Notes under the pieces: model-generated | The model's input: the letters and a program-made list of their open reading frames with translations, nothing else | Told to the model about the DNA's origin: nothing | Databases searched by the model: none | Assembly (NCBI GenBank): GCA_013289695.1 | Contig: JABCZK010000001.1 | Span: forward strand, 62,001 to 126,000 | Origin: Acidobacteriota bacterium | GTDB lineage: Bacteria; Acidobacteriota; Terriglobia; Acidiferrales; UBA7541 | Length of the DNA stretch: 64,000 bases | Reading direction: 5' to 3' | Shown here: positions 23,614 to 34,246 of the stretch, in pieces | Position numbering within the stretch: the stretch's first letter is position 1 | Layout: each line of letters opens with the position of its first letter | Translations under genes and position numbers: made by a program

Positions 23614-24957
23614 ATGGGATTATTTCAAACTATTCAACCTGAGGAAGATTCGCCGGCGGGGCGGCCGCTGGCGGACCGGATGCGTCCGCAGACTTTGGAT
23701 GAATTTATTGGGCAGGAAGAATTGCTGGGGCCTGGTAAACCTTTGCGCGTGCAGATTGAGCGCGACGATTTGGGTTCGATGCTCTTGTGGGGGCCTCCGG
23801 GGTGCGGCAAGACGACACTGGCGCGAATTATTGCGCGGACTACGAAGTCGGAATTCATTCCTTTCAGCGCGGTCCTTTCCGGGATCAAGGAAATCAAGGA
23901 AGTGATGGCCAAAGCGGAGGCCACGCGGCGCTACGGGCGGCGCACGATCGTGTTCGTGGATGAAGTGCACCGGTTCAATCGCGCGCAGCAGGATGCGTTT
24001 TTGCCACACGTGGAGGCGGGGAACATTTTATTGATTGGCGCGACTACGGAAAATCCGTCGTTCGAGGTAATTGCGCCGCTGCTTTCGCGGATGAATGTGT
24101 ATGTGCTGAAGGCGCTGACGCAGGAGCAGATCGTTTCGCTACTGGAACGCGCGCTGGCGGATGACGTCCGCGGCCTGGGAAAATTGAACGTGGCGGCGAA
24201 CCTGGAGATCTTGCATCGCATCGCGATTCTGGCTAATGGAGATGCGCGGGCGGCTTACAACACTTTGGAAGCGCTGGTGATGGGGACGGAGCCTGGGCCC
24301 GAGGCGCGGCGCGTGCTGACGCAAGAGCGGCTGGAGGATGTTCTGCAGCGGAAGTTGCTGCCGTATGACAAGTCGGGCGAAGAACATTTCAATCTGATTT
24401 CGGCGCTGCACAAGTCTGTGCGGAATTCGGATGCGGATGCAGCTTTGTACTGGATGGCGCGCATGATCGAATCCGGGGAGGATCCGCTGTACATCGCGCG
24501 GCGGCTGGTGCGCATGGCGAGTGAAGATATTGGATTGGCGGAGCCGCACGCCGTGGAAGTTACGATCGCGGCGATGCAGGCGTTTGAATTGTTGGGACCA
24601 CCGGAGGGGCATTTGGCGCTGGCGCAGGCGGCGGTGTATTTGTCGCTCGCGCCGAAATCGAACGCCGTGTACAAAGCTTATGGCAAAGTGCAGGACGATT
24701 TGCAGAGCACCATGGCGGAGCCTGTGCCGCTGCAGATCCGGAATGCGGTGACGGGGTTGATGAAGAATATCGGGTATGGGAAGGGCTATCAATACGCTCA
24801 CGATTTCGAGGATAAGGTTACGGACATGAGTTGTTTGCCGGAAAGTTTGGCGGGACGGACTTATTACAATCCTACGGATCAGGGATTCGAGGCGCGGATT
24901 CGGTTGCGGCTGGAGGAAATTCGGCGGATTCAGAAAAAGCCGGCGGAGAAATGCTAA
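23614..24957 (+). CDS. rarA: Replication-associated recombination protein A (RarA/MgsA)
   Basis: A 447-residue AAA+ ATPase related to clamp loaders that acts at stalled replication forks. Order: RPLADRMRPQTLDEFIGQEE, Walker A GPPGCGKTTLARI, Walker B region VDEVHRFNRAQQDAF, sensor 1 LIGATTENPSFEV, then the RarA-specific helical C-terminal domain (ISALHKSVRNSDADAALYWM, EPVPLQIRNA, LPESLAGRTYY). The ATG at 23614 begins the typical MGLFQ start; the track ORF starts 24 codons earlier inside the preceding gene. Full length. Confidence 0.95.
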   Translation: MGLFQTIQPEEDSPAGRPLADRMRPQTLDEFIGQEELLGPGKPLRVQIERDDLGSMLLWGPPGCGKTTLARIIARTTKSEFIPFSAVLSGIKEIKEVMAKAEATRRYGRRTIVFVDEVHRFNRAQQDAFLPHVEAGNILLIGATTENPSFEVIAPLLSRMNVYVLKALTQEQIVSLLERALADDVRGLGKLNVAANLEILHRIAILANGDARAAYNTLEALVMGTEPGPEARRVLTQERLEDVLQRKLLPYDKSGEEHFNLISALHKSVRNSDADAALYWMARMIESGEDPLYIARRLVRMASEDIGLAEPHAVEVTIAAMQAFELLGPPEGHLALAQAAVYLSLAPKSNAVYKAYGKVQDDLQSTMAEPVPLQIRNAVTGLMKNIGYGKGYQYAHDFEDKVTDMSCLPESLAGRTYYNPTDQGFEARIRLRLEEIRRIQKKPAEKC

Positions 24958-25451: not shown

Positions 25452-26576
25452 GTGGTGCTGTGCGCGCTAGTTGTGCCGGTGTTGGGGCTGGCGGAAATAA
25501 AGCAGGGGGCGGTGTTTGACCAGGACGTGCAGGCGTTTGCGATTTCGCAGGACAATCATGTGGTGTACGCGGTGGAGCGCATGAAGCGGATCAAGAAGCT
25601 GATTGTGGAGCACGACGATTTCTGGGTGGGCGATGTTGACGGAAAAAAGCGCAAGATTATTGATGGCGACAAGTTTACGCCGGTGCCCTTCTCTCCTGAC
25701 GAGGAACCGAGCGATCCGGGTGATTCCAAGCACCCGCCTTTGCCGCATCAGCACAGCTACCAGGTGGACACGCTGACTTGGTCGCCGGACAGCAAGCGGA
25801 TCGTGGTGAAGATGGATACTTCGGAGCTGGCGCAGCCGCGCGGGAGCATCGTGCAGCAGTTGGATGAGCAGCAGACGGTGCGGCCGAACACGATTTTGTA
25901 TTTGATGGATGCGGATGGGCGGGAGATTTCGATTTCTGGATCGAAGACCGCGACGCTTTCGGATGCGTTTAATGCGGCGTGGCTGGCGGATGGACAGACT
26001 TTGGTGTATCTGTCGAAAACTGACGGCGGGCTGAGCCAGATTAATGCGTTGCGGCCGGCGGATGGAAAGAAGCGAGTGCTTTTTGAAGGGTTCACTTTTG
26101 CCGCGGTGGCTTGGGACACGAAGCGCAACCAGGCGTTTGCGGTTGAACAGAATACGCGGCTGGTGGGTGCGCCGAAAATCATGCAATTGGATCTGGTGGC
26201 GGAGAGGGTGACGGAATTGGGGTCTGTGGAGGAATACGCGGGATTTTTGACGGTGGCGCCTTCGGCTAAGAAGATCGCCTATTTCAAGGATGGGGATACG
26301 CTGGAGGTGCGGGACGTGGTGGGCAAGGCGAAACCGGTGGTGGTGCGCGTGGCGATTGGGGAATTTCAGTGGGCGCGCGACGAACAGCACATATTGCTGA
26401 AGCGCGGGCAGCCGCAGCAGTCGAATAATTTGGTCTGGGTGGGAGTTTACAACGGAACGTTCGAGCCGTTTTTTCACGGATTGGAGTTTCATAGTTTTGC
26501 GATTGCGCCGGATGGAGAGACGGTGGGGGTGACGGAGCCGGGGAAACGGGCGCTCGTGATGTATCGGTTGCAGTGA
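25452..26576 (+). CDS. Exported beta-propeller (TolB/WD40-like) protein, start uncertain
   Basis: A protein of about 374 residues or slightly more, with repeating blades of the PD40/TolB kind: VDTLTWSPDSKRIVVKMDTS, AFNAAWLADGQTLVYLSKTD, FLTVAPSAKKIAYFKDGDTL, and HSFAIAPDGETVGVTEPGKR. A hydrophobic export segment (IFWAVVLCALVVPVLGLAE) precedes it. No ATG is available; GTG at 25452 or 25455 is the nearest start but removes the basic RLRR n-region, which lies in repeat-derived sequence. An unrecognised start or 5' disruption by the repeat is possible. The ligand or partner is unknown. Confidence 0.7.
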   Translation: MVLCALVVPVLGLAEIKQGAVFDQDVQAFAISQDNHVVYAVERMKRIKKLIVEHDDFWVGDVDGKKRKIIDGDKFTPVPFSPDEEPSDPGDSKHPPLPHQHSYQVDTLTWSPDSKRIVVKMDTSELAQPRGSIVQQLDEQQTVRPNTILYLMDADGREISISGSKTATLSDAFNAAWLADGQTLVYLSKTDGGLSQINALRPADGKKRVLFEGFTFAAVAWDTKRNQAFAVEQNTRLVGAPKIMQLDLVAERVTELGSVEEYAGFLTVAPSAKKIAYFKDGDTLEVRDVVGKAKPVVVRVAIGEFQWARDEQHILLKRGQPQQSNNLVWVGVYNGTFEPFFHGLEFHSFAIAPDGETVGVTEPGKRALVMYRLQ

Positions 26577-26947: not shown

Positions 26948-27439
26948 TTAGCTGCTGGCGGGATCTTTTGTTAGGCGGAGGCGGCGGACGTGTTCTTTTA
27001 GGATGCAGGAATTCATTTGGACGAAGAGGCCTGCGCGGCGGGCGCGCTCGGCGGCTTCGGGATCGATTACGCCTTCTTGCATCCAGATGGCGCGGGCGCC
27101 GATGCGGATGGCCGAGTCCACGATGTCCGGCACGAATTCGGATCGGCGGAAGATGTTCACGATATCCACTTTTTCGGGAATGTCTTCCAGGCGCGCGTAG
27201 CACTTCTCGCCAAGTATTTTGCTTTCCAGCGGATTCACGGGGATGATGCGGTATCCGGCGGATTGTAAATAATCGGCAACACCGTAGCTGGGGCGGAATT
27301 TGCGATTGGAGAGGCCGACGATGGCGATGGTGCGGCTGGCCTTTAGAATCTCCATCGTCGGATCGCGAGGCGCGGCCTGCGTGCTTCCGCTTTCGAGCGA
27401 GTTTATGGACGAGTCGGATTCGTCGGCGGATTCAGTCAT
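26948..27439 (-). CDS. CoA-binding (YccU-type) protein
   Basis: A 163-residue Rossmann-fold CoA_binding_2 protein. ILKASRTIAIVGLSNRKFRP is the nucleotide loop, followed by SYGVADYLQSAGYRIIPVNP, VDIVNIFRRSEFVPDIV and ARAIWMQEGVIDPEAAERAR. It resembles the CoA-binding half of succinyl-CoA ligase but acts alone; its cellular role is unknown. Its ATG overlaps the hisC stop by one base (TAATG), so translation is coupled. The first 25 residues are a Ser/Asp-rich leader not typical for the family. Confidence 0.88.
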   Translation of the reverse strand: MTESADESDSSINSLESGSTQAAPRDPTMEILKASRTIAIVGLSNRKFRPSYGVADYLQSAGYRIIPVNPLESKILGEKCYARLEDIPEKVDIVNIFRRSEFVPDIVDSAIRIGARAIWMQEGVIDPEAAERARRAGLFVQMNSCILKEHVRRLRLTKDPASS

Positions 27440-28599
27440 TAAATGTCCCGGGAATCCCCTTCCAGAAATTGGCGGATGGACGGTTGCGATTCGCGCGGCG
27501 TAGTGTCTCTTACCAGTGCAAGCGAGTCCAGAAATTTATTGTTTTCTTCGGGGGTGCCGACCGAGACGCGGATGGCGGTGGGCAGGCCCATCCAGCGCAT
27601 GGGCCGGACGATGACGCCGCGGGTAAGAAGCTCTTCGCTGATGGGTTCGGCGTCGCGTCCGAATTCGACGAGCAGGAAATTCGCGACCGACGGGACGAAT
27701 TGGATCGCCAGTGATTTCAAGCCTGCCGAGAGTTGTACCTGGCCAGCGCGATTGGATTCGACGGAATGGCGGACGTGTTCTCGGTCGTCGAGTGCTGCCA
27801 GGGCAGCCGCTTGCGCGACGCCGGAAGTGTTGAAGGGGCCGCGCAGCTTGTTCATTTCGTCGAGAAGGTCGGCGGGGCCGATGCCGTAGCCGATGCGCAG
27901 GCCTGCCAGGCCGTACACTTTGGAAAAAGTGCGGAGGACGATTACGTTGCGGCGGCGCTGGGCTACGGCGATAGAGCGCGAATAATCGGGGCGCTCGACA
28001 TATTCGAAATAGGCTTCGTCCACGACCACGAGGACGGTTTCCGGAACGCGCGCGAGGAAGGAATCTAGTTCGTCGGCGGTGAACATAGTGCCGGTTGGAT
28101 TGTTGGGATTCGCGAGATAGACAATTTTGGCTTCGGGCGGGAGATTGCGGGCGATGGAGTCTAGATCGAACGCATAATTTCGCAGCGGAATTTCGAGAAG
28201 GCGTGCTCCGGCGGCGCGAATCGCGATGTAGTACAGCGGGAAAGAACCGTGCGAAGTGACACCGCAATCGGCTTGGGTGAGCATGATGCGCGCGGCGAGG
28301 TCAATCAATTCGGTGGAGCCTGCGCCGAGAATTATATTTTCGGTGGGGACGCTGTGCTTCTTTGCGAGAGCTTCGCGGACGTAGAAGCCGCTGCCGTCGG
28401 GATAGCGATTAGAATCGGCGAGAGCTTTTTGCGCGGCGGCGATAGCGAGGGGCGACGGGCCGAGCGGATTTTCATTGGAAGCGAGTTTGATGGGATGCAT
28501 TTTCAGTTCGCGTTCAACCTCTTGGATTGGTTTTCCGGGCACGTAGGGAGCCAACGCGCGAATGTGAGGGGGGACGAGATCATGAATGTACTTGGTCAT
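27439..28599 (-). CDS. hisC: Histidinol-phosphate aminotransferase
   Basis: A 386-residue PLP fold-type I aminotransferase. It starts ALAPYVPGKPIQEVERELKM and carries KLASNENPLGPSP, ILGAGSTELIDLAARI, YLANPNNPTGTMF, VVVDEAYFEYVE, and the PLP-lysine segment VLRTFSKVYGLAGLRIGYGI. It should convert imidazole-acetol phosphate to histidinol phosphate; activity on aromatic or other substrates is possible because no other his genes are nearby. It starts 13 bp after the RsuA/RluB-like gene and overlaps the CoA-binding gene by one base. Confidence 0.9.
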   Translation of the reverse strand: MTKYIHDLVPPHIRALAPYVPGKPIQEVERELKMHPIKLASNENPLGPSPLAIAAAQKALADSNRYPDGSGFYVREALAKKHSVPTENIILGAGSTELIDLAARIMLTQADCGVTSHGSFPLYYIAIRAAGARLLEIPLRNYAFDLDSIARNLPPEAKIVYLANPNNPTGTMFTADELDSFLARVPETVLVVVDEAYFEYVERPDYSRSIAVAQRRRNVIVLRTFSKVYGLAGLRIGYGIGPADLLDEMNKLRGPFNTSGVAQAAALAALDDREHVRHSVESNRAGQVQLSAGLKSLAIQFVPSVANFLLVEFGRDAEPISEELLTRGVIVRPMRWMGLPTAIRVSVGTPEENNKFLDSLALVRDTTPRESQPSIRQFLEGDSRDI

Positions 28600-28612: not shown

Positions 28613-30229
28613 TCAGCGCCTTCCCTTGGGGCCTGCGAAATTTCCTGGTCTTGGTTTGTGATGGCCCGGGCCGCTACCGCTGCGTTTTGGTGCGCCGGGG
28701 CGCGGCTTCATGCCGGCCGGGCCTCCGCCGGGTTTTGTGAATTTGCCTTTCGAACGGCCGAATGCGCCGGGTTCGGAGGGTTTGCGCGATTTCCAGGGGG
28801 CGCCGGGTTTGCGGCTGCCTCCTCCTGCTGTCCCACTGCTGCGGAATTTTGAGCCTGGGCCTGCGCTCGGGCGCCCTGCGTGCTGCGATGATTCGGCGCG
28901 GCGCCACGGAGCTTCTGATTTTTGTTTGATTGGGCGATCGTAGTCCGAGTCTTGCTCGCGGCGCTGGAAGGTATCGGGGCGGAATTTCTGGAACGGCTTT
29001 CCGCCGTGATGTGGTTTTGAGTCGGCGGGGCCTTCCCTTCTGAGCGGCGGGCGCGGTTTCCACGGGCCGCGCGTTTTTTCGCTGTGCGATTTCGAGTCGT
29101 GTGATTTTTCGCCGAATGATTTTAAGAATGGCGGTTTTGAAGGGCGTCCGCCTGCGGCTGCTGGGCGCGATTTGAAATCGGGGCGCGCGGGATGGCCTTG
29201 GCGCGAATTCTGAAAGCCTTTTTGTGGCGGCGCAGAGAATGGAATTGTTGCGGCCGGCGCCGGCGGCACGGGGCGATCGTGCGGTGCGTTCTTGAAATTC
29301 TGATGCGGACGCGGCGTGTAGCTGTCGCGCGGAACGAACGGTTGAGTCGTACGCTTTGCTTCGCCTGGTTTAGGTTTCGGTTGATAGGGGCGGCGTTTGA
29401 CGAAGGGGCGGCGCGCGCTCGCGGGTGCGAACTGCAGCTTGGGAATGCCTGTTGCAGCACTCGGCGACGCTGCCGACAAAACCGGCTGGGCGCTCGTGAG
29501 CATTGCTGGATGTGCTGTTGGACCGATTTGCGCAGCGGCTGGCTGGACCATGCGGCGCAGAGTGTTTACTTCAGCGTCTGAAAGCGGGCGATAAGTTCCC
29601 GCGGCGAGCGATTCGAGCGTGAGGTTGCCGATTTTTACGCGCTTGATTTTTTCCACGGGGTGGCCGGTCTGGAACAGGCGGTTGCGCAGCTGGTCGCGGC
29701 GAGCTTCGGAGAGTGTGACTTCGTACCACGGAGCGTCTTTGCCTTTGATGCGCGTGATGCGGGCGCCTGTCGATTGCGCTAGGCTTTCGATTTCTTCAAA
29801 GGTTAGAAGCGTTTTCAATTTCAGATTGTAGGTTTGCGGCAGGTGATGGGCTTTGAGCATCAGGTTCGCTAGTTCGCCGTCGTTGGTGAGGAAAACGAGG
29901 CCGAAGGAGTGATATTCCAGGCGGCCTACGGGAAAGACGCGCTGCGCGACGCCGTGGAGCATATCGGCGAGGGAGCGGCGCCCTTCGGGGTCAATCATGG
30001 TGGAGACTACTTCGGGCGGTTTATTCAGCAGCAGATAGACGCGCTCGGTTTCGGGGCGCAGGAGTTTGCCCTGGACTTTGATGTGATCGTTGGATTCGTC
30101 GGCTTTGCTGCCAAGTTCGGTGATGGTTTGGCCGTTCACGGTGACTAGGCCGGATTTGATGAGTTCTTCGGCGTGGCGGCGGGAGGCGATGCCGGCGCGC
30201 GCAATAATTTTCTGTAGTCGTTCGAGCAT
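28613..30229 (-). CDS. RsuA/RluB-family pseudouridine synthase homologue with Asp-to-Glu change and long basic tail
   Basis: A 538-residue protein. Residues 1-60 form an S4 RNA-binding domain (LQKIIARAGIASRRHAEELI). Residues about 65-245 form the RsuA/RluB catalytic fold (LLNKPPEVVSTMIDPEGRRS; FLTNDGELANLML). The catalytic motif, normally GRLD, reads VGRLEYHSFGLVF, so residue 105 is Glu. Residues about 246-538 are a low-complexity Lys/Arg/Pro/Gly-rich tail (FVKRRPYQPKPKPGEAKRTT; RPAAAGGRPSKPPFLKSFGE) that is probably disordered and RNA-binding. The start at ATG 30229 matches the S4 domain; the track start is 26 codons too long. Location after scpA-scpB is the usual rluB context. Confidence 0.85.
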   Translation of the reverse strand: MLERLQKIIARAGIASRRHAEELIKSGLVTVNGQTITELGSKADESNDHIKVQGKLLRPETERVYLLLNKPPEVVSTMIDPEGRRSLADMLHGVAQRVFPVGRLEYHSFGLVFLTNDGELANLMLKAHHLPQTYNLKLKTLLTFEEIESLAQSTGARITRIKGKDAPWYEVTLSEARRDQLRNRLFQTGHPVEKIKRVKIGNLTLESLAAGTYRPLSDAEVNTLRRMVQPAAAQIGPTAHPAMLTSAQPVLSAASPSAATGIPKLQFAPASARRPFVKRRPYQPKPKPGEAKRTTQPFVPRDSYTPRPHQNFKNAPHDRPVPPAPAATIPFSAPPQKGFQNSRQGHPARPDFKSRPAAAGGRPSKPPFLKSFGEKSHDSKSHSEKTRGPWKPRPPLRREGPADSKPHHGGKPFQKFRPDTFQRREQDSDYDRPIKQKSEAPWRRAESSQHAGRPSAGPGSKFRSSGTAGGGSRKPGAPWKSRKPSEPGAFGRSKGKFTKPGGGPAGMKPRPGAPKRSGSGPGHHKPRPGNFAGPKGRR

Positions 30230-30568: not shown

Positions 30569-31372
30569 CTAGGTTTCCGAGTCGGAGGATTGACTGGCAG
30601 AGCCGGCGGAGGCGGCAGCGGCGCGGGATTTGTCGCTGTCTTCGGGCGTCGTATGGGATGTGGCTTCGGATTCGGCAGCGGTAGAGATATCTTGAGCGGC
30701 CGCGACTGCGGATTCGCCGACTGCGATTCCGGCTCCGGTGGCGACTTCTACTTCGACAACTTCCGCGTCGACAATTTCTGAGCCGATTGCGGCGGATTCT
30801 TCTGGCTCGGCTTCGGCTATGCCTTCGTCGGAACCGAGGGCGGCTTGGGCGAGGGCTTCGAATTCTTTCAGGCTGGGGAGCTCGTCGAGATCGGAAAGGC
30901 CGAAGCGCATCATGAATTGTTTGGAGGTGCGATAGAGGATAGGGCGGCCGATGACTTCTTTGCGGCCAGCGGTGGTGATCAGGCGCTTTTCGAGGAGGGT
31001 TTTAATCACGCCGCCTACGTGGACGCCGCGGATTTCATTTATTTCGGGAACGGTGACTGGTTGTTTGTAGGCGATGACCGCTAGAGTTTCCAGCGCGGGC
31101 ATAGTAAGGCGCAGCGGCGGTTGCAGGCTCTTGATAAATTTGCGGACTACGTCGTGATGCTGGGCTTTGGTGTAGAACTTCCAGCCGCCGGCGACTTTGC
31201 GGACTTCGATGCCGCGGTCGTCGGTCTGGTAGGCGGCGGTGAGTTGTTCGAGCGCGGCGCGGGCTTCGGGTTTTTCGATGCCGAGGGCTTTGGAGATTTG
31301 GTCGAGCGTGGCGGGCTCGTCGGCGGCATAGATGATGGCTTCTAGTGAGGATTGGATTTCTTGTGGCGTCAT
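30569..31372 (-). CDS. scpB: Segregation and condensation protein B with acidic tail
   Basis: A 267-residue winged-helix subunit of the SMC-ScpAB condensin. The core matches the family: EIQSSLEAIIYAADEPATLD, GIEVRKVAGGWKFYT, PALETLAVIAYKQPVTVPEI and GRPILYRTSKQFMMRFGLSD. After about residue 170 there is an approximately 95-residue acidic, Ala/Ser-rich tail (AEAEPEESAAIGSEIVDAEV) that the family normally lacks. I use ATG 31372 with AGAGG upstream rather than the track start. It is separated from scpA by about 210 bp of repeats. Confidence 0.92.
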   Translation of the reverse strand: MTPQEIQSSLEAIIYAADEPATLDQISKALGIEKPEARAALEQLTAAYQTDDRGIEVRKVAGGWKFYTKAQHHDVVRKFIKSLQPPLRLTMPALETLAVIAYKQPVTVPEINEIRGVHVGGVIKTLLEKRLITTAGRKEVIGRPILYRTSKQFMMRFGLSDLDELPSLKEFEALAQAALGSDEGIAEAEPEESAAIGSEIVDAEVVEVEVATGAGIAVGESAVAAAQDISTAAESEATSHTTPEDSDKSRAAAASAGSASQSSDSET

Positions 31373-31583
31373 TTGGTTTTTTGCCTCTTTGCGTTTGTCG
31401 GTCGTGCTTACGGCGGGCACGGCATGCCGTGCCCCTACGGCCTAGAAATTGTTTGAATGCAAAACATCTTGCAGCAAAACCACAAATCCGGCCTCAGGGG
31501 CTGAAGCCCCAAGGATAGAGCGCGATTTACGTCGGGGCTAAAGCCCCGCCCTTCCCTACTCCGCAATCCGACGGATCGACGTG
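31373..31583. repeat. Repeats between scpA and scpB
   Basis: Holds a ggcacggcatgccgtgcc palindrome (about 31418) and an R7 pair (about 31495-31555, caggggctgaagccccaagg and gtcggggctaaagccccgcc). Nothing coding is seen. Confidence 0.65.
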
Positions 31584-32357
31584 TCACAGGTATTGCTCCT
31601 CGATTTGTGACAGGGCGTCGGGGCCGGCGAAGACTGCATCGAACATTTTGTGTTTGCGCAGGCGGATGTCTTCGAAGAGGTCGGATTGCACTAGCAGGAC
31701 GGCTTGCATGCGGACCATTTCGAGGACGGCTAGCAGCGCGACGATCATGGCGTTGCGCGTTTCGCAGGTTTCGAAAAATTCGATTAGGGAGACGGGATCG
31801 TCGGTGACGATCAGGCGCTGGCGCAGGCGGTCCATCATCTGCGCGATGGAGACGGTATCGTGGCGCAGGCCGAATTGCGGGACTTCCTTGCGGCGTTCGA
31901 GAACTTGTTGGAATGTTTTGACGAGATCAACTAGCGAGACGACTAGCTCGCCTTGGACTTCGTCGCCGCCGTAGAGGGACTTATCGGGATGCGACCAGAC
32001 GTTCGCTTCGACCTGTTGCTTCTGGTAGAGGAGCTGCGCGGCGTTTTTGAATTTTTCGTGTTCTAGTAGGCGGTGGACTAGTTCATCGCGCGGATCTTGT
32101 TCTTCGGCGGCCAGGAGCGGGTCCACTGGCAGGAGCATTTTGGATTTGATGTGGATTAGCGTAGCGGCCATGTAGATGAAATCGGCGGAGACGTCTATGT
32201 CTAATTTTTCGAGTTGGTGGAGGTAGTCGAGATATTGCTCGGTGATTTTGGCGATAGGGATATTGTGGATGTCCATCTCCTGCTTGCGGATTAGATCGAG
32301 CAGGAGATCGAGCGGTCCTTCGTACGATGGTAGATTGATGCGATAGGGTGATGCCAT
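31584..32357 (-). CDS. scpA: Segregation and condensation protein A
   Basis: A 257-residue kleisin that bridges SMC heads in chromosome condensation. The N-terminal segment YEGPLDLLLDLIRKQEMDIH with PIAKITEQYLDYL is the family hallmark, followed by the acidic RDELVHRLLEHEKFKNAAQL. The C-terminal winged helix reads VALLAVLEMVRMQAVLLVQS and FEDIRLRK. Normal length. It precedes scpB on the same strand. Confidence 0.95.
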   Translation of the reverse strand: MASPYRINLPSYEGPLDLLLDLIRKQEMDIHNIPIAKITEQYLDYLHQLEKLDIDVSADFIYMAATLIHIKSKMLLPVDPLLAAEEQDPRDELVHRLLEHEKFKNAAQLLYQKQQVEANVWSHPDKSLYGGDEVQGELVVSLVDLVKTFQQVLERRKEVPQFGLRHDTVSIAQMMDRLRQRLIVTDDPVSLIEFFETCETRNAMIVALLAVLEMVRMQAVLLVQSDLFEDIRLRKHKMFDAVFAGPDALSQIEEQYL

Positions 32358-32675: not shown

Positions 32676-33917
32676 TTACGTCCCCTGCTCGCGCGCTTCG
32701 TCCCATTGGAAGATCGCGTTGCGGACGCGGTTCATGGTTTTGCGCGCGACCTTCTGGGCTTGCTTCGAACCGGTGTCGAGGATATCCCAAACTTGCTGTG
32801 GATTGGCCTCAAATTGTTTGCGGCGTGCCTGGATAGGCTCGATCCACTTCACCAGGCCTTCGGCCATTTCTTTTTTGCAGTCCACGCAGCCGATGGCGGC
32901 GGAGCGGCAGTCGCGGTCAATGCGGGCTACCGTGTCGGGCGGCGAAAATAATTTGTGATAGGCGAAGACCGGGCAGATTTCCGGGCGGCCGGGGTCGGTG
33001 CGGCGGACGCGTTGGGGGTCGGTGAGCATGTGCTTCAAGACCTTGTTACGAATCTCCTCAGGCGAGTCGGTAAGCCATATTGCATTGCCGTACGATTTCG
33101 CCATGCGGCGGCCGTCGAGACCGGGAAGGCGGGGGGTTTCGGTGGGGATGTAGGCTGGCTCGCGCAGTATGGAATTCATCTTGAAGTATTTCGCGAATTC
33201 GCCGACTTCGCGCACGAAGTTATCCCAGCCAATTTGGGAAGCCCTCCACTTGAATGCCCACGGGTTCTTCGCGAGCGTTTCCTCGGCAGGAAGGGCCGCG
33301 TCCACCAGCGAAGGAGGAAGCTCCACTAATTGTTTTAGCTTTTTCAGAGCGTCGTGATACCCAGCCAAATCCTTTTTCACTTCAAATCCGAAATGCGTGT
33401 TGAATCTGCGCACAACTTCGCGAGTTAGTTCGACGTGCGGAGCTTGATCTTCGCCGACTGGAACGAGCAAGTCTTGTTTCGGCTCGCCGTACATTACGAT
33501 GTCGGCGGATTGGAGGAGGGGGTAGCCCAGGAAGCCGTAGGTGCCCAGGTCGCGGCCTCTCAGGTTTTCAATTTGTTCTTTGTAGGTGGGGACGCGCTCT
33601 AGCCAACTTAGCGGGGTGGTCATGGAGAGGAGGACGTGGAGTTCGGCGTGTTCGAGAACTTGGGATTGCACGAAGAGGGTGGATTTTTCTGGGTCGAGGC
33701 CTACGGCCAGCCAGTCCATGGCAACTTGCAGGGTGTTTTCGGCGATGGAGGAGGTGTCTTCGTAGTGCGTGGTTAGGGCGTGCCAGTCGGCTACGAAGAA
33801 GTAGCAATCGTATTCTTGCTGGAGTTTTAGCCAGTTGGAGAGGGCGCCGAAGAAATGGCCCAGGTGGAGGCGGCCGGTGGGGCGCATGCCGCTGAGGACT
33901 CGTTTCGGTTTCGTCAT
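32676..33917 (-). CDS. trpS: Tryptophanyl-tRNA synthetase
   Basis: A 413-residue class Ic aminoacyl-tRNA synthetase charging tRNA-Trp. The HIGH-type motif is SGMRPTGRLHLGHFFGALSN; the KMSKS-type motif is GRRMAKSYGNAIWL; LLVPVGEDQAPHVELTREVV is also diagnostic. It is about 80 residues longer than the E. coli enzyme, with an insert in the middle (DALKKLKQLVELPPSLVDAA). A Cys pair occurs in GCVDCKKEMAEG. The ATG at 33917 overlaps the VOC gene stop in ATGA, giving coupled translation; the track start is 42 codons upstream inside that gene. Confidence 0.95.
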   Translation of the reverse strand: MTKPKRVLSGMRPTGRLHLGHFFGALSNWLKLQQEYDCYFFVADWHALTTHYEDTSSIAENTLQVAMDWLAVGLDPEKSTLFVQSQVLEHAELHVLLSMTTPLSWLERVPTYKEQIENLRGRDLGTYGFLGYPLLQSADIVMYGEPKQDLLVPVGEDQAPHVELTREVVRRFNTHFGFEVKKDLAGYHDALKKLKQLVELPPSLVDAALPAEETLAKNPWAFKWRASQIGWDNFVREVGEFAKYFKMNSILREPAYIPTETPRLPGLDGRRMAKSYGNAIWLTDSPEEIRNKVLKHMLTDPQRVRRTDPGRPEICPVFAYHKLFSPPDTVARIDRDCRSAAIGCVDCKKEMAEGLVKWIEPIQARRKQFEANPQQVWDILDTGSKQAQKVARKTMNRVRNAIFQWDEAREQGT

Positions 33918-34246
33918 GCTTTCGCGGTTCCGATGCGAAGGCGGTTGCCGTCCGGGTCGCGCAGCTCGATTTCGTGCGCCCAGGGCTTCTCGCCGACTTT
34001 CACTTGAAAATCTTTGGCGATTGGTAAGACGTCCTGGACCCACAGATAGACGAGGGTGTCCGGACGCGCGTCTCCTTTATGTTCGGAAAGAAACATGCGC
34101 ACCGCACCTCGGGCGATGGAGACGAAGGCGGGAAGGTGCGGCTCGAAGCGGCGTTCCCATTCTTTTTGGAAGCCGAGGCGTTGGTACCACGCCGCGGAGT
34201 TCGCGGCATCGGCGACGTGCAGGATGGGGATGACTTGTTCGTTCAT
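33914..34246 (-). CDS. VOC (glyoxalase/bleomycin-resistance) family protein
   Basis: A 110-residue single-domain vicinal-oxygen-chelate protein. It begins VIPILHVADAANSAAWYQRL, continues with PAFVSIARGAVRMFLSEHKG and ends AHEIELRDPDGNRLRIGT, the classic VOC strand pattern. The residues fit binding of a metal or small hydrophobic compound, or bleomycin-type resistance; the substrate is unknown. Its stop overlaps the trpS start by four bases. The ATG at 34246 is preceded by AGGAGC. Confidence 0.88.
   Translation of the reverse strand: MNEQVIPILHVADAANSAAWYQRLGFQKEWERRFEPHLPAFVSIARGAVRMFLSEHKGDARPDTLVYLWVQDVLPIAKDFQVKVGEKPWAHEIELRDPDGNRLRIGTAKA

Follow-up and report, generated by a model that had tools for sequence, protein, structure and literature searches.

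A divergent RluB-like protein with glutamate at the catalytic aspartate position: probable in-place erosion of a 23S rRNA pseudouridine synthase in an acidobacterial order

The closest described relatives of the protein considered here are two pseudouridine synthases of E. coli, RluB, which makes Ψ2605 of 23S rRNA (structures 4lab, 4lgt and 9cl9), and RluF, which makes Ψ2604 (3dh3). In the published description, every known pseudouridine synthase shares the catalytic Asp, and mutating it inactivates TruA, TruB, RluA and RsuA (PMC3919597). The structure of RluB with RNA shows the H93 loop anchored by Arg17 and the target base displaced by Arg108; Asp110 and Arg194 are among the motif II and III residues, and the R108A and Y140F variants show 0.6% and about 3% of the activity, respectively (PMC3919597). 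E. coli suffers little when its rRNA pseudouridines are lost (PMC11194073), and it is a standing question why rRNA-modifying enzymes with nearly phenotype-free modifications persist. A conceptual parallel is provided by RlmB and RlmKL, where the presence of the protein, and not the modification, aids subunit assembly. However, these are methyltransferases with intact active sites, and RluB had no such effect in the same study: its re-expression in E. coli lacking ten 23S-modifying enzymes improved neither growth nor assembly (PMC11194073). A search of the open literature, with subscription journals mostly outside its scope, found no description of the divergent RluB clade presented below and nothing on D-to-E mutants or natural Asp-less synthases.

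The window, a stretch of 64,000 nucleotides from an Acidobacteriota genome, carries on its minus strand an open reading frame translated as MLERLQKIIARAG..., with the N-terminus MLERLQKIIARAGIASRRHAEELIKSG (Table 1). The start codon fits the relatives, which open with M-[EL]-ERLQKI. The S4 domain is followed by PseudoU_synth_2 (PF00849, Pfam match at residues 65-183, 8e-9), both above the Pfam cut-offs, and the predicted structure matches RluF 3dh3 and RluB 4lgt (TM by target 0.81), as expected for a member of the RsuA/RluB/E/F family. RluF is the best match in sequence and fold (8e-32), while E. coli RluB shares the S4 and synthase fold along the entire domain at 30-32% identity and a TM of about 0.8. 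The model also matches 9cl9, which according to the title of the entry is E. coli RluB from a 12 °C ribosome-assembly fraction. The curated profiles score the protein below their cut-offs: 89 bits versus 290 for the NCBIfam RluB equivalog, 112.5 versus 318 for the RluF equivalog and 89.9 versus 109.3 for the TIGR00093 pseudouridine synthase subfamily. The other divergent proteins tested also fall below the TIGR00093 cut-off (84.8-98.9 bits), whereas canonical ones lie above it (156-163).

Table 1. Features of the divergent rluB-like gene and its neighbours in the window
Feature	Position	Strand	Basis or remark
Divergent RluB-like protein, 538 aa	28613..30229	(-)	ATG at 30229, stop 28613-28615
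S4 RNA-binding domain, residues 3-44	30098..30223	(-)	Pfam S4 9.1e-13
Pseudouridine-synthase fold, residues 65-232	29534..30037	(-)	Pfam PF00849 8e-9 and RluB/RluF structure match
Motif II GRLEYH, residues 102-107	29909..29926	(-)	Glu105 at RluB Asp110, Arg103 at Arg108
QTY, residues 132-134	29828..29836	(-)	Gln132 at RluB Arg138, Tyr134 at Tyr140
Rebuilt motif III, residues 173-187 (LSEARRDQLRNRLF)	29669..29713	(-)	Ala at Gly191, Asp179 at Arg194, Arg182 at Arg197
Basic, predicted-disordered C-terminal tail, residues 233-538	28616..29533	(-)	Composition and low pLDDT
CoA-binding protein, downstream neighbour	26948..27439	(-)	Pfam CoA_binding_2 and synteny
hisC-like aminotransferase, downstream neighbour	27439..28599	(-)	Pfam Aminotran_1_2 and synteny
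scpB, upstream neighbour	30569..31420	(-)	Pfam and synteny
scpA	31584..32357	(-)	Pfam and synteny
trpS-like class I tRNA synthetase	32676..34043	(-)	Pfam tRNA-synt_1b (W and Y not separated by the model) and synteny

Alignment to E. coli RluB and RluF places Glu105 (motif VGRLEYHSFGLVFLTNDGELA, codon GAA at 29917-29915) on the catalytic Asp110 of RluB, so the claim of a preliminary description that GRLE, with GAA at 29915-29917, stands in place of the catalytic Asp proved correct. Arg138, Gly191 and Arg194 of RluB are likewise replaced, by Gln, Ala and Asp, and the same catalytic losses separate the protein from RluF, while Arg17, the base-flipping Arg108, the active-site Tyr140 and Arg197 are retained. 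Motif III, canonically EGRNxQ[IV]R, reads EARRDQLR. The other pseudouridine synthases of the same genome retain Asp (TruA ASRTD, TruB GTLDP, RluD-type HRLD). A sequencing error or a strain-specific mutation is ruled out, as GRLEYH is found in 17 of the 17 members of the genus that cover the motif, in independent MAGs. Asp in close orthologues, named in advance as the sign of such an error, is thus absent from the genus, although sister genera have it; that D and E replace one another inside the clade is informative in its own right.

The homologue search covered 101 relatives and then 95 genomes of the order, and most of the genes were retrieved. As members of the divergent clade, 79 sequences were chosen by Gln, instead of Lys or Arg, at RluB position 138, and the tree was built leaving out columns 108, 110 and 138. 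Even with column 138 omitted, the 79 sequences of the order group together (support 100/98), apart from the canonical RluBs of the class. The clade was found in one order of soil acidobacteria only (Ca. Acidoferrales-like). A scan of named species met the same genes in entries named Candidatus Acidiferrales/Acidoferrales, gp2 acidobacteria and palsa MAGs; the gene of Candidatus Acidiferrum typicum (L039, genus g4) has the motif GRLD. Elsewhere in the phylum, a DNA pattern scan for P-[VIM]-G-R-[LF]-E-[YF] was run on 395 Acidobacteriota genomes other than that of the window, none of them from the same order. The scan, which left out AGR Arg codons and the GNLE/GGLE and Pro forms, gave matches in 37 genomes, none RluB-like when the frames were read: many were one ABC-permease-like protein, and the rest were unrelated, short or spurious.

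At position 110, the 80 canonical or paralogous rows, among them E. coli RluB, have Asp without exception. Within the clade the residue is Glu in 57 members, Asp in 16, Pro in five and Tyr in one, that is, Asp has been replaced in 63 of the 79 and an acid is present in 73. The tree requires at least eight changes at this position, and parsimony is compatible with a single origin of Glu and reversals to Asp, or with several origins of Glu. Close sisters differ (L233 has Glu and L234 Asp, and L218 has Asp inside a Glu clade). Pro (GRLPY) is found in all five sampled f3 members (L046, L064, L072, L075 and L082), whose genomes gave no other RsuA-type match. A branch-length share test for the eight changes gives only p = 0.027, which weakens the case for erosion; the argument for it is therefore based on the identity of the changing positions and of their new residues. 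A g4 gene (L037:3283-3987, plus strand) reads GRLYYF, with a TAC-encoded Tyr at the catalytic position, where its sisters have GRLDYA; this may be real or a local error.

The gene order trpS-scpA-scpB-rluB-hisC-CoA-binding is common to the divergent gene and the canonical RluB genes of other families of the class, and RluB orthology by the scpA-scpB-rluB order holds for both. The scpAB-linked canonical RluBs of other Terriglobia families have about 50% identity to the window protein but keep GRLD, K/R-x-Y and EGRNxQ[IV]R. Because the locus is the same, the divergent gene is the orthologue, altered where it stands, rather than a paralogue of foreign origin. It is probable that this RluB has lost its catalysis by erosion and is maintained as a non-catalytic factor that binds rRNA, probably in 50S assembly. 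The gene would be the vertically inherited scpAB-linked RluB orthologue of the order, its pseudouridine-synthase centre dismantled in place and its RNA-binding body held by selection. Most likely, the S4 domain and the cleft of the window protein would bind helix 93 of 23S rRNA, on which RluB acts, while the 50S subunit assembles; the protein would form no pseudouridine at an appreciable rate and would serve as a pseudoenzyme in rRNA folding or assembly. We infer the pseudoenzyme status from the residues and the substitution pattern. An inactive protein turned assembly or RNA factor had been proposed in the preliminary description; that part agrees best with the comparative data, while the C-terminal tail, proposed as a module of the same change, does not belong to it, as discussed below.

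The replacement of catalytic residues is clade-wide. Gln is found at position 138 in 79 of 79 members (Lys or Arg in all canonical rows), and Asp or Glu takes the position of Arg194, also in 79 of 79, versus R/N/Q/H otherwise; Gly191 is missing in all but one or two of the 79, and Arg108 in 25. Alongside the published activity losses of RluB and Asp mutants (PMC3919597), Gln138 and the acidic residue 194 argue for an eroded centre. The reference was the set of 18 positions at which 79 canonical and paralogue rows show no variation. Twelve of them (G13, S16, R17, K74, P75, D84, R88, G107, L109, G115, R197 and R212) never change in the divergent clade and G227 changes once, whereas G191 changes 18 times, D110 and N121 eight times each, and R108 and Y140 three times each. 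By mean top-residue frequency, the S4 domain is more conserved (0.86) than that of the canonical relatives (0.775), and the catalytic domain slightly less so than theirs (0.61 vs 0.65). The median dN/dS is 0.15-0.24 in the divergent groups and 0.13-0.29 in the canonical ones, and for S4 it is 0.04-0.10 in the three larger divergent groups and 0.23 in f3, all rough values since pairs are not independent and dS is high. These figures indicate purifying selection on the divergent genes with the RNA-binding body retained. The pseudoenzyme reading follows from this pattern, in which the RNA-binding body stays constant and the chemistry no longer does. The fold is predicted to be unharmed even without an acid at 110, the Pro-type protein L046 being modelled with a pLDDT of 94.8 and a TM of 0.85 to RluB, and the title of entry 9cl9, which has E. 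coli RluB bound to a large-subunit intermediate, offers an analogy consistent with a role in assembly.

Among the fetched stretches, 22 loci of genus g5 also carry a canonical RluB (GRLDY/F, K-x-Y, EGRNRQ), nearly always directly downstream; this neighbour is inverted in L226 and L231 and in pieces in L041 and L224. The tandem arrangement, a GNLE-type divergent RluB beside a canonical one, is represented by L044:3278-4955 (plus strand), L045:2265-4217 (minus strand) and L216-L232. The canonical copies of g5 cluster with family f11, and an acquisition next to the native gene is possible. The divergent copy has Asn or Ser at 108 where the neighbour is present and Arg in the five g5 genomes without it. 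It seems that Arg108 mattered until a canonical enzyme was present. This link goes back to a single evolutionary event, and Gly108 occurs in two g12 members with no canonical neighbour; both points count against the preferred reading. The divergent g5 copy without Arg108 is still an intact ORF, and the divergent gene is kept even after a canonical copy is present. The persistence of the copy is in keeping with a retained non-catalytic role and makes it very improbable that the gene is functionless and drifts towards decay after the need for Ψ2605 was lost. The low cost of rRNA pseudouridine loss in E. coli (PMC11194073) and the few order members with no detectable copy would fit such a decay, but the frames are intact, dN/dS is well below 1 across the order, and the 12 reference positions stay frozen while the catalytic ones move.

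The strongest rival to a non-catalytic factor is a synthase active with Glu, in which the rebuilt pocket (Gln138, Asp/Glu194 and a small residue 191) would accommodate a side chain one methylene longer than that of Asp and Ψ2605 or a neighbouring Ψ would be made. Such an enzyme seems unlikely, although several observations speak for it. The acid at 110 is preserved in most of the clade, and Glu is invariant in g1 (the genus of the window), g3, g8 and g10, where Arg108, Tyr140 (one Phe) and Arg197 are retained. The preserved acid, together with the invariance of Glu in the genus of the window, would be unexpected under pure relaxation and, like the retention of Arg103, Tyr134 and Arg182 of the catalytic site in the window genome, tells against the preferred reading, as does the failure of re-expressed RluB to help the ten-enzyme deletion strain mentioned above. 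In most g1 members, the PF00849 proteins number exactly two, an RluD-type one and the divergent RluB, and no other RsuA-family enzyme able to make Ψ2605 was seen in most g1 genomes, which are incomplete MAGs. The 23S target sequence GACAGUUCGGUC, U2605 included, was located in seven genus members and is intact in each of them (G000 and several other MAGs gave no match to the site), and the loss of the target is ruled out as an explanation where testable. Moreover, the members without Arg108 are mainly those that have a canonical RluB. On the other hand, the very same position carries Pro in the sister family and Tyr in one member, Asp mutations abolish the activity of four synthases (PMC3919597), and 22 Glu110 members also lack Arg108, with two more having Gly108.

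The rebuilt cleft might also act on another RNA site or catalyse another reaction. The clade has new invariants of its own (Gln138, Arg11 and Glu193, window numbering) and a full charge reversal at Arg194, both in favour of a changed chemistry or substrate, but no new catalytic-looking cluster is seen and the motif II residue varies across the clade (D, E, P, Y), which makes this explanation improbable. L222 and also L164 encode a divergent RluB with a 13-residue insertion inside motif III.

The wider claim would be that an rRNA pseudouridine synthase has been converted in place, order-wide, into a dead rRNA-binding assembly factor, with intermediates (D, E, P and Y at 110; Arg108 loss beside a canonical RluB) visible in living genera; to us it seems about equally likely to be right or wrong. 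If true, it would be a natural test of the catalytic versus chaperone roles of rRNA-modifying enzymes. With the locus unchanged, the gene under purifying selection and the intermediates graded, an Asp-less clade could tell the chemistry of RluB-type proteins apart from their rRNA binding. There is also a warning for annotation, as the label of 23S pseudouridine synthase in these genomes may be attached to proteins that make no pseudouridine.

The C-terminal tail had been described as a basic extension of 290 residues; its kind was given correctly and its length slightly too low, the tail having 306 residues rich in P, G, A, R, S and K with a net charge of about +45. AlphaFold models it at low confidence (block means roughly 40-60) with no secondary structure, while residues 1-230 are mostly above 90. 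In the genus of the window the tail varies from about 12 to 406 residues and has 32 residues or fewer in 11 of 17 members. Long basic tails are a recurrent accessory of canonical, Asp-type RluBs as well: L074, L089, L091 and L182 have such tails, those in the acidobacterial families f7, f8 and f11 measure 238-298 residues, and a Nitrospiria MAG has one of 283 residues. The suggestion that the tail is part of the same change as Glu was not borne out and is ruled out, since tails vary independently of Glu. Being long on some Asp-type RluBs and short in over half of the genus, the tail is a separate, recurrent and labile accessory and does not count as evidence for the new function. Where present, it may add unspecific RNA affinity. 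Long open frames also run on the minus strand of the window antisense to plus-strand ORFs (24139-24801, 25467-26492 and others); they resemble shadow frames of GC-rich coding DNA.
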